In this document: piece by piece, positions 31,479 to 35,921 of the stretch | Layout: every line of letters starts with the position of its first letter | How positions within the stretch are numbered: the first letter of the stretch is position 1 | Assembly: GCA_947478755.1 (NCBI GenBank) | Contig: CANJXH010000008.1 | Location: forward strand, 1-35,921 | DNA length: 35,921 nucleotides | Source: Betaproteobacteria bacterium | Lineage (GTDB): Bacteria; Pseudomonadota; Gammaproteobacteria; Burkholderiales; Rhodocyclaceae | Reading direction: 5' to 3' | Notes under the pieces: generated by a model | The model's database searches: none | What the model saw: only the letters and a program-made list of their open reading frames with translations | Told to the model about the DNA's origin: nothing | Position numbers and translations under genes: made by a program

Positions 31479-32411
31479 CTACAGCGCCAGCGCCGACAAT
31501 ATCTCGTCGGCACCATCGGCGCGCAGCATCTGCGCGACATCGAGGCCCAGTGCTTCGGCCGCATCCATTGCCCCCTTGCGCTCGGCGCGGGCGACCTGCG
31601 TGCCATCGGGCCGGGCGACAAAACCACGCAGCCACAACTGCCCCTCCTGCTGCACGGCATAGGCGCCCAGCGGCACCTCGCAGCTGCCAGCCAATGCGCG
31701 CGACACCGCCCGCTCGGCGCGAACGCAGGCCGAGGTGATGGCGTCATTCAGCGGTGCCATCCACTGCGCGACGTCGGGCCGCGAAGCCAGCGCCTCAATG
31801 CCCAGCGCGCCCTGCCCCGCGGCCGGCAGCGAGAACTCGGCTGGCAGCACGGCGCGAATGCGATCAGCAAGACCCAGCCGCGTGAGGCCCGCTGCGGCGA
31901 GGATGATGGCGTCGTACTCACCGCTGTCGAGTTTGCGCAAGCGCGTATCGAGGTTGCCGCGCAGACTGGTCACCGCGAGATGCGGAAAGTTGGCGTGCAG
32001 CTGCGATTCGCGGCGCAGGCTTGAGGTGCCGACCACGGCACCTGGCGGCATGTCATCAAGCGAGGCATAGCGGCTGGAGACAAAGGCATCGAGCGGCGTC
32101 TCGCGCGGGCCGATGGCGACCAGCGCAAAGTCATCGCCGAGGTTCATCGGCACATCCTTCATCGAATGCACGGCGATATGCGCGCTGCCATTGAGCAGCG
32201 CGTTTTCAAGCTCCTTGACGAACAGTCCCTTGCCACCGACCTTGGCCAACGGTCGATCCAGTATCTGGTCGCCCCGCGTCGTCATGCCCAGCAGCTCGAC
32301 ACTGCATTGGGGATAGAGGCCGCGCAACAGGTCGCGCACATGCTCGGCCTGCCACAGGGCAAGGCGCGATTCGCGCGTGGCAATGACGATACGTTCGGGA
32401 GCAGAAGTCAC
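31479..32411 (-). CDS. hemC: Porphobilinogen deaminase (hydroxymethylbilane synthase)
   Basis: HemC condenses four porphobilinogens into hydroxymethylbilane using a covalent dipyrromethane cofactor. The start is GTG 32411, giving 310 aa ([20 protein letters not shown]); the track ORF extends to 32519 through non-homologous sequence. Motifs include [26 protein letters not shown] and the cofactor-bearing Cys in [12 protein letters not shown]. It heads the hemCDXY run and has its own promoter candidate, important because the upstream algZ/algR region is broken. Confidence 0.96.
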
Positions 32412-32537: not shown

Positions 32538-32693
32538 TTACTGGTAGGTCTGCCCGTTGTATTTCAACCAACCCGCCTCATGCCGACCGGAAGGGTCGTG
32601 ATGCGTCCAATGCACCACCCCGCCCTTCTCGCTCCACTCGTACTCTCCATGGAACGCCACTTCATGCCCCGCCCGCAAACCCTCCAGGCGCGG
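32538..32693 (-). pseudogene. 3' remnant of a DUF3465 gene fused out of frame to algZ
   Basis: Read in the frame ending at TAA 32538, this stretch encodes about 51 residues: PRLEGLRAGHEVAFHGEYEW, then SEKGGVVHWTHHDPSGRHEA and GWLKYNGQTYQ. The GEYEW, GGVVHWTHHDP and GW-K-NGQTYQ blocks are the C-terminal signature of DUF3465 proteins, small proteins with an OB-like beta fold and unknown function. There is no room for the N-terminal half: going upstream the frame meets a stop at 32739-32741, with no ATG before it and algZ sequence in another frame. The piece is missing from the ORF track because it lacks a start. No function is expected. Confidence 0.85.
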
Positions 32694-33259
32694 AACAATT
32701 CGGCCAGCTCTTCGAGCGCCTTCTCGGCCCGGCGCGGATCACTGCGGATGATGCCGAGGATGCCATTCAGGCTGTTGAACAGGAAGTGGGGGCGAATGCG
32801 GGCCGAAAGCGCCATCAGTCTCGCCTCGGCCAGTGCGGGCGAACGTGCTTGTTGCCTGAGGTGCAGCCAGCTGCCGATCAAGGCCGTTGCCACGCCCGCC
32901 CAGAGCAGCTCGCGCAAAAGCGATGGGGTGATGGCGCTGCCTTGCGCGAAGGCGAGGTGCAGCCCCGCCACGACGAGCTGTGTCGTGACAAAAATCACCG
33001 CCCAGGCGCTAAATAGCGGGATCCCGGCCAAATAGGGTGCCGCGGCCGGGATAATGAGCAATATGACAATTGCAGCCCCGTCGAGCATTGGCAGCAAGGT
33101 GAGGAACGCCGGCATCCAGCGGGCGGGGTCGGGCTCGAAAATCAGCACCGTCAAAAGGCCCAGCACGTTGGCCGCGAGGAAAATGTGCAGCACAGTCGCC
33201 GGATTGCGGAAGTCGGGCAAGCCGGTCGGTGAGAGGTTTTGCCGTATACTTGAATCCAT
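32564..33259 (-). pseudogene. algZ: Truncated AlgZ/LytS-type sensor histidine kinase
   Basis: AlgZ (FimS) is an inner-membrane histidine kinase that works with the LytTR regulator AlgR. The ORF (231 aa) has about four membrane segments (for example VLHIFLAANVLGLLTVLIF and AWAVIFVTTQLVVAGLHLAF) and an intact phospho-acceptor block ARIRPHFLFNSLNGI with His158. After LEELAELFRA the sequence diverges at Trp192. The last 40 residues are DUF3465 sequence read in the wrong frame, and the whole HATPase domain is absent (full-length members are about 350 aa). It cannot autophosphorylate on its own. The start ATG 33259 is normal. The expected downstream algR is missing. Confidence 0.88.
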
Positions 33260-33315: not shown

Positions 33316-34713
33316 ATGACAGAACAACAGAACAACAACGCTGGCGGCAAGGCCTGGTCGGGACGGTTTTCGGAACCGGTGTCGGACCTGGTCAAGCGCT
33401 ACACGGCGTCGGTGTACTTTGACAAACGGCTGGCGCTGCACGACATCCGCGGTTCGCTGGCACACGCCCGCATGCTGGCAAAACAACAGATCATCAACGC
33501 TCAGGATCTGGCCGACATCGAACGCGGCATGACGCAGATTGAAGCTGAAATCACCGCTGGCACCTTTGCCTGGAACCTCGACGACGAAGACGTGCACCTC
33601 AACATCGAGAAGCGCCTGACGGCGCTGGTGGGCGATGCCGGCAAGCGGCTGCACACCGGACGCTCGCGCAACGACCAGGTGGCGACGGACATCCGCTTGT
33701 GGTTGCGCGATGCCATCACGGATATTGACGCACTGCTGCGCAACTACATTCTTGCGTTGCTTGATCTCGCCGAGCAGCATGCGGCGACGCCGATGCCCGG
33801 CTTTACGCATCTGCAGGTAGCGCAACCGGTCACCTTCGGCCACCATTTGCTGGCCTATGTCGAAATGGCGAAGCGTGACCGGGAACGGATGGCCGATTGC
33901 CGCAAGCGGGTGAGCCGCCTGCCCTTGGGCAGCGCTGCGCTGGCGGGCACCACATTCCCGATTGATCGCGCCTATGTCGCACAGCAGCTGGAGTTTGAAG
34001 CGGTGTGCGAGAACTCGCTGGATGCGGTATCCGATCGCGACTTTGCCATTGAGTTCAGCGCCGCTGCGGCGCTGGTGATGGTGCATGTGTCGCGCTTTTC
34101 GGAAGAACTGATTTCATGGATGAGCCCGCGCATCGGCTTCATCGACATTGCGGACCGCTTCTGCACCGGCTCGTCGATCATGCCGCAGAAGAAGAACCCG
34201 GATGTGCCAGAACTGGCACGGGGCAAGAGCGGCCGCGTGTTCGGCAACCTGATGGGACTGTTGACCCTGATGAAAGGCCAGCCGCTGGCCTACAACAAGG
34301 ACAATCAGGAAGACAAGGAGCCCTTGTTCGATACCGTCGATACGCTGACCGATACCTTGCGCATTTTTGCCGACATGGCGACGGGCATTACGGTGAAGCC
34401 GGAGGCCATGGCATCGGCACTCAAGCAGGGGTTCGCGACGGCGACCGATCTGGCCGACTATCTGGTGAAAAAGGGACTGCCTTTCCGCGATGCGCATGAA
34501 GCCGTGGCGCTTGCCGTGCGCAGCGCCGAGAAGAAGGGCTGCGACCTGGCCAACCTGTCGTTGCAGGACCTGCAGACATTCTCACCCCTGATCGACAAGG
34601 ATGTCTTTGCCGTGCTGACGGTAGAGGGCTCGCTGGCGGCGCGCAACCACATTGGTGGCACGGCCCCGGCACAGGTTCGCGCAGCAATACAGCGCGCTCG
34701 CGCCTCGCTGTAG
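33316..34713 (+). CDS. argH: Argininosuccinate lyase
   Basis: ArgH splits argininosuccinate into arginine and fumarate, the last step of arginine synthesis. The protein is 465 aa, standard length. It has [20 protein letters not shown] at the N-terminus, [18 protein letters not shown] near residue 112, [19 protein letters not shown] near residue 160, and the fumarase/aspartase superfamily signature [19 protein letters not shown] near residue 285. It is divergent from the broken algZ; the 56-nt gap has a short palindrome but no strong argH promoter, though TATACT occurs at 33245 inside algZ. Confidence 0.97.
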
Positions 34714-34726
34714 GCCGGGAGAGAAA

Positions 34727-35921
34727 ATGGCAATGGACAGAATCGGCAAATACGACATCAAGCAAAAGCTCGGCGAGGGCGCAACCTCGACCGTGTATCT
34801 TGGCCATGACTCTTTTGCCGGACGCGATGTGGCGGTCAAGGTGATCTTCCCCGAGGTGCTGAAGGACCGCGAGAAAGGCCGTCTCTACCGGCATCTGCTG
34901 GTCAATGAGGCTTCACTCGCCGGCAAGCTGCTGCACCCGCATATCGTGCAGATCTTCGATGCGGTGATCGACGATGACCAGAGCTACATCGTGATGGAGT
35001 ACGTGCCGGGCGGTACGCTGGAGCAGTTCTGTTCACCGCGCAACCTGTTGCCGATCAATCGCATGGTGGAAATGATCTTCAAGTGCACGCGCGCGCTTGA
35101 ATACGCAAACCGGCTTGGCATCACCCATCGCGACATCAAGCCGGCGAACATCCTGCTGGCGAAGCAGGGCAATACCGGCGACATCAAGATTTCCGACTTC
35201 GGCGCAGCCCTGATGGCGGGCAGTGACCAGACGCAGACGCAGGTGTCGGGCGTTGGTTCGCCGGCCTACATGTCGCCGCAGCAGGTGCGTGACCTGCCGC
35301 TCAATCACCAGACCGACATCTACTCTCTCGGTGTCGTGATGTACCAGCTGCTGACAGGTCGCCTGCCTTTCACGGCGACCAACAACTTCAGCATGATCTA
35401 TCAGATCACCAACCACGACCCGCTGCCGCCGTCGACCTTCCGCACCGAGATCCCTGCAGGACTCGACGCCATCGTGGCACGCGCCATGCAGAAGGAAGTG
35501 GAGGCGCGCTACGCGACATGGGAGGAGTTCTCTCACGATCTGGCGCAGTCATTCCGCAACAAGCAGTTGTCGGCGCATGTTCAGGAAGTACCGGACAGCC
35601 AGAAGTTCGAGACGCTGCGCGGGCTGCCCTTCTTCTCGGAATTCAGCGATGTGCAGATATGGGAAGTGGTGCGCTTCTCGACTTGGGACGATGCCGCCGC
35701 CGGCACGGTGGTGATGAAGGACGGCGAGGCCGGTGACTATTTTTGTTTCCTCGCCGAGGGCGAACTGCGCGTCAACAAGAAAGGTCACCTGCTTGGCGTG
35801 CTGACGCCCGGCGACTGCCTGGGCGAGATGGCGGTGATCAATCGCAACAGCAGCGTCCGCGGTGCCGACGTCGTTGCGCAGACGCAATCACGCCTGGTGA
35901 CCATTCGTGCAGATGCGCTGC
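34727..35921 (+). CDS. Serine/threonine protein kinase with cyclic-nucleotide-binding domain (cut by window end)
   Basis: This frame is absent from the track because it has no stop before the window edge; 398 codons are visible. It is a Hanks-type kinase: glycine loop LGEGATSTVYLG (about residues 15-26), catalytic Lys38 in VAVKV, HRDIKPANILL with Asp136, DFGAA with Asp157, and SPAYMSPQQV. From about residue 297 a cNMP-binding domain follows (LPFFSEFSDVQIWEVV, AGDYFCFLAEGELRV, PGDCLGEMAVINRNSSVRGA). The phosphate-binding cassette keeps Gly-Glu and an Arg, so nucleotide binding is plausible but the ligand (cAMP, cGMP or none) is unknown. The start ATG 34727 has GGGAGA upstream; ATG 34733 is an alternative. 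It starts 13 nt after argH. No membrane segment is seen. Confidence 0.92.
   Translation, partial: MAMDRIGKYDIKQKLGEGATSTVYLGHDSFAGRDVAVKVIFPEVLKDREKGRLYRHLLVNEASLAGKLLHPHIVQIFDAVIDDDQSYIVMEYVPGGTLEQFCSPRNLLPINRMVEMIFKCTRALEYANRLGITHRDIKPANILLAKQGNTGDIKISDFGAALMAGSDQTQTQVSGVGSPAYMSPQQVRDLPLNHQTDIYSLGVVMYQLLTGRLPFTATNNFSMIYQITNHDPLPPSTFRTEIPAGLDAIVARAMQKEVEARYATWEEFSHDLAQSFRNKQLSAHVQEVPDSQKFETLRGLPFFSEFSDVQIWEVVRFSTWDDAAAGTVVMKDGEAGDYFCFLAEGELRVNKKGHLLGVLTPGDCLGEMAVINRNSSVRGADVVAQTQSRLVTIRADAL

Follow-up and report, generated by a model that had tools for sequence, protein, structure and literature searches.

A probable deletion scar joining remnants of algZ and a DUF3465 gene between argH and hemC in a Betaproteobacteria bacterium

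We observed that the algZ sensor kinase gene of a Betaproteobacteria bacterium breaks off after 191 codons and runs, out of frame, into the C-terminal end of a DUF3465 gene, a small gene whose function has not been assigned. With a probability of roughly 0.78, we read the region as a deletion scar, that is, a "deletion-born fusion" pseudogene left where the AlgZ/AlgR pathway was lost. The locus lies in a window of 35,921 nucleotides, the whole stretch of DNA that was analysed, which belongs to a draft assembly of 2.63 Mb in 193 contigs with 95.9% completeness. The features of the locus are listed below.

31479-32411, minus strand: hemC, probable start GTG at 32411; in the usual order algZ-algR...hemC it forms the downstream flank (Pfam; synteny).
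32538-32693, minus strand: C-terminal remnant of a DUF3465 gene, 51 codons plus stop, in a frame that differs from that of algZ (Pfam and identity).
32564-33259, minus strand: chimeric ORF of 231 aa, consisting of 191 AlgZ residues and then 40 frame-shifted residues (ORF translation).
32686-32694, minus strand: deletion junction; CCGCGCC (32687-32693) is the candidate microhomology (compared at the DNA level with homologues of both genes).
32687-33259, minus strand: 5' remnant of algZ/LytS, codons 1-191, with the membrane part and H-box (PHFLFN...ELFRA) and lacking the ATPase domain (Pfam and homologues).
33316-34713, plus strand: argH, which lies next to algZ and divergent from it in almost every relative (Pfam; synteny).

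An earlier note on this DNA had described an AlgZ/LytS reading frame that diverges at residue 192 and has lost the kinase ATPase domain, and the Pfam comparison agreed on both points. The match of the 231-aa ORF to PF06580 (His_kinase; E=1.7e-11) runs from residue 146 to residue 191, covers only positions 1-47 of the 81 in the profile, and is followed by sequence that leaves the family. The H-box region with PHFLFN is present in the remnant, and the complete His_kinase region and ATPase domain of an AlgZ/LytS kinase are absent. Identity to homologues was 34-49% across nearly the whole remnant, and the best homologue spanning all of it in a relative showed 49% identity over residues 3-197. The genus comparison comprised two species, those of the window's genome and of the same-genus genome G001, to which the remnant is 72% identical over residues 113-193. 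All compared homologues continue with FR[A/V]L[M/L] at the point where the window reads FRAWRV. The intact AlgZ of G001 (L018:1384-2178), counted from the start it has there, is itself a protein of only 264 aa; ~70 membrane-part residues present in the window's remnant and in most relatives appear to be lacking from it.

On the other side of the break, the minus-strand frame 32702-32538 matched PF11948 (DUF3465) with E=2.2e-23 over profile positions 72-124 of 124 and ended at its own stop codon. Over its 51 residues, the tail shares 51-73% identity with intact DUF3465 proteins, a resemblance that far exceeds chance. This bears out both the earlier assignment of 32693-32538 to a DUF3465 C-terminus in another frame and the similarity of the tail that had been named as its check. 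Like DUF3465 proteins, the tail carries GGVVHWTHHDP and AGWL; unlike them, it has neither the N-terminal two thirds nor a start codon, so that a full-length domain is absent.

Both remnants resemble working genes in their codon structure. GC content at the first, second and third codon positions is 0.64/0.47/0.79 in the algZ remnant and 0.68/0.44/0.76 in the DUF3465 tail, and the third-position values compare with 0.78 in hemC and argH. The 191 codons of algZ contain no stop. Against the same-genus copy, the H-box remnant showed pN of 0.045 and pS of 0.54; against intact relatives, the DUF3465 tail showed pN of 0.19-0.35 and pS of 0.68-1.06, with differences mostly at synonymous sites. Since both remnants keep their native codon structure and neither shows decay, the event looks recent.

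DNA comparison with homologues of both genes refined the point of the switch from about 32684-32696, as placed before, to about 32686-32694. The minus strand here reads GAATTGTTCCGCGCCTGGAGGG. The same-genus algZ has TTTCGCGCC at the matching site, then CTGATG, and other relatives are alike; DUF3465 homologues have GCN-CCN-CGN, then I, V or L. The TT 5' of CCGCGCC is consistent with algZ and not with DUF3465, which has GCN there (one T possibly excepted), and the TGGAG 3' of it is consistent with DUF3465 and not with algZ, the first T already departing from the algZ codon CTG. The seven nucleotides CCGCGCC (32693-32687) are compatible with both genes. Bases that fit either gene thus do exist, as the earlier note had proposed, but its nine nucleotides are slightly too long and seven fit. 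Its further proposal of a microhomology-mediated deletion stands as regards the deletion; a microhomology of ~7 nt is a possible mechanism, compatible with the homologues' sequences and unproven. A repeat check found no direct repeat of at least 12 nt at the junction.

Next, we compared the gene neighbourhood with that of relatives. Nearly all fetched relatives have the arrangement argH|algZ-algR, and in many of them hemC follows downstream in the same direction. Most of the family members examined have hemC downstream, ~0.5-14 kb from algR where both genes are on one stretch. In the window, argH flanks the scar on one side and hemC on the other. Both genes usually neighbour algZ-algR, which makes a deletion the simplest explanation. 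The same-genus genome has argH|algZ-algR intact and hemC elsewhere, with hemC-hemD-hemX ~0.9 Mb from algZ-algR (L165, L146) and a ClC-type-channel-like gene after algR; the block is rearranged there too. Two further observations concern the flanks in the window. Homologue starts make GTG 32411 a more probable start of hemC than GTG 32519 further upstream, with which the longest ORF begins, and downstream of argH a serine/threonine protein kinase gene with a C-terminal cyclic-nucleotide-binding domain (34652-35920) runs off the contig end.

We then assessed whether the missing parts are located elsewhere. A search of the 95.9%-complete genome found no second His_kinase (LytS-type) protein, no LytTR regulator (AlgR), no 3' half of algZ (searched with the same-genus AlgZ) and no further piece of DUF3465, including its 5' half. 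This completes the search proposed earlier for a separate full-length DUF3465 gene or algZ 3' half, neither of which turned up. The partner LytTR response regulator of an AlgZ/AlgR two-component system is accordingly absent. Among 351 family genomes of at least 90% completeness, LytTR was present in 318 and absent in 33 (~9%), so loss of the AlgZ/AlgR pathway is not exceptional in the family. Measured against AlgZ (264 aa) and AlgR (256 aa) of the same-genus genome and against a DUF3465 protein of 169 aa, the lost DNA amounts to at least ~440 + 770 + 350 bases.

The deletion scar probably arose as follows. In an ancestor, argH would have stood divergent from a run made up of algZ, algR, possibly further genes, a DUF3465 gene and hemC. 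A single deletion of at least ~1.5 kb would then have taken out algR entirely, together with at least the 3'-terminal 40% of algZ and the 5'-terminal two thirds of DUF3465, and the remnants would have been joined out of frame, possibly via the 7-nt microhomology. The outcome would be a recent pseudogene, a 231-aa chimeric ORF that has neither an ATPase domain nor a partner regulator. The weakest link is the position of DUF3465 between algR and hemC before the deletion. We checked the loci of relatives (>100 algZ-bearing and ~35 DUF3465-bearing) and found DUF3465 between algR and hemC, or near algZ, algR or hemC, at none outside the window's own locus; for this reason, we can only infer the pre-deletion order. 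The rarity of DUF3465 in the family, the separate location of hemC in the same-genus genome and the draft state of the assembly in 193 contigs also count against the deletion reading.

An assembly chimera, in which two distant loci or strains were falsely joined at a short shared motif while the living genome keeps an intact algZ-algR, is unlikely. The genome is a draft, and the missing halves could sit on short unbinned contigs. However, both sides belong to one conserved block, argH|algZ...hemC, and the order argH, scar, hemC is what an internal deletion is expected to leave, which speaks against two unrelated stretches having been joined by chance during assembly. In addition, LytTR, other LytS kinases, the algZ 3' half and the DUF3465 5' half are all absent from the bin. 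A shared motif of ~7 nt is too short for joining by ordinary k-mer assembly, and the junction has no longer repeat; both count against a chimera.

We regard it as similarly improbable that a piece of DNA bearing the DUF3465 tail entered algZ by insertion or recombination and that algR was lost separately. DUF3465 is rare and patchy, occurring in 8 of 399 genomes in the family and 34 of 399 in the order, and relatives that carry it have it at other loci; both points speak for such an event. This course of events nevertheless requires two or more steps, the junction shows no repeats, and hemC, which would be expected to follow algR, comes directly after the DUF3465 tail. That the truncated membrane/H-box protein has been kept for a new function, dimerising or acting as a dominant-negative form of AlgZ for instance, is very unlikely: its stop-free 191 codons and highly conserved H-box would fit, but a recently broken gene would show the same pattern, the genome has neither AlgR nor a second LytS kinase, and the last 40 residues come from reading DUF3465 in a shifted frame. 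It is just as hard to credit that the 231-aa chimera is expressed and retained as a deletion-born protein with its own role.

Of the two fates suggested earlier for the remaining membrane/H-box part, that it might dimerise or be inert, the missing AlgR favours the second. Lacking the ATPase domain, and in a genome that has neither AlgR nor another LytS kinase, the truncated kinase is most likely inert and non-functional. The window keeps the AlgZ membrane part and H-box, divergent from argH, as in AlgZ/AlgR (LytS/LytTR) systems; unlike these, it has no ATPase domain and AlgR is found nowhere in the assembly, so that it does not work as a system of this type.

Deletion-born fusions are known from across the bacteria (PMC12803068). 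The present locus shares with them that both ends of the apparent deletion lie inside genes and that a chimeric ORF, built from fragments of two formerly separate genes, is left. As for the ancestral split genes, argH|algZ-algR is intact in relatives, and DUF3465 was found between algR and hemC in none. A closely similar published case is mlaE-htpX of the M. bovis lineage, in which the front is in frame, the rear is out of frame, the catalytic motifs are lost and there is no sign of immediate function (PMC12803068). The present locus differs in its genes, algZ and DUF3465, and lies in a draft genome. A literature search for AlgZ, AlgR, hemC and argH together found no paper.

In conclusion, the locus represents an ordinary kind of gene loss and not a new system. 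It offers a clean example of a two-component system vanishing from a lineage and leaving a chimeric ORF behind, and it cautions against annotating the 231-aa ORF as a functional AlgZ or as a novel fusion. Should the chimera be expressed, it would add a further test case for deletion-born genes (PMC12803068).
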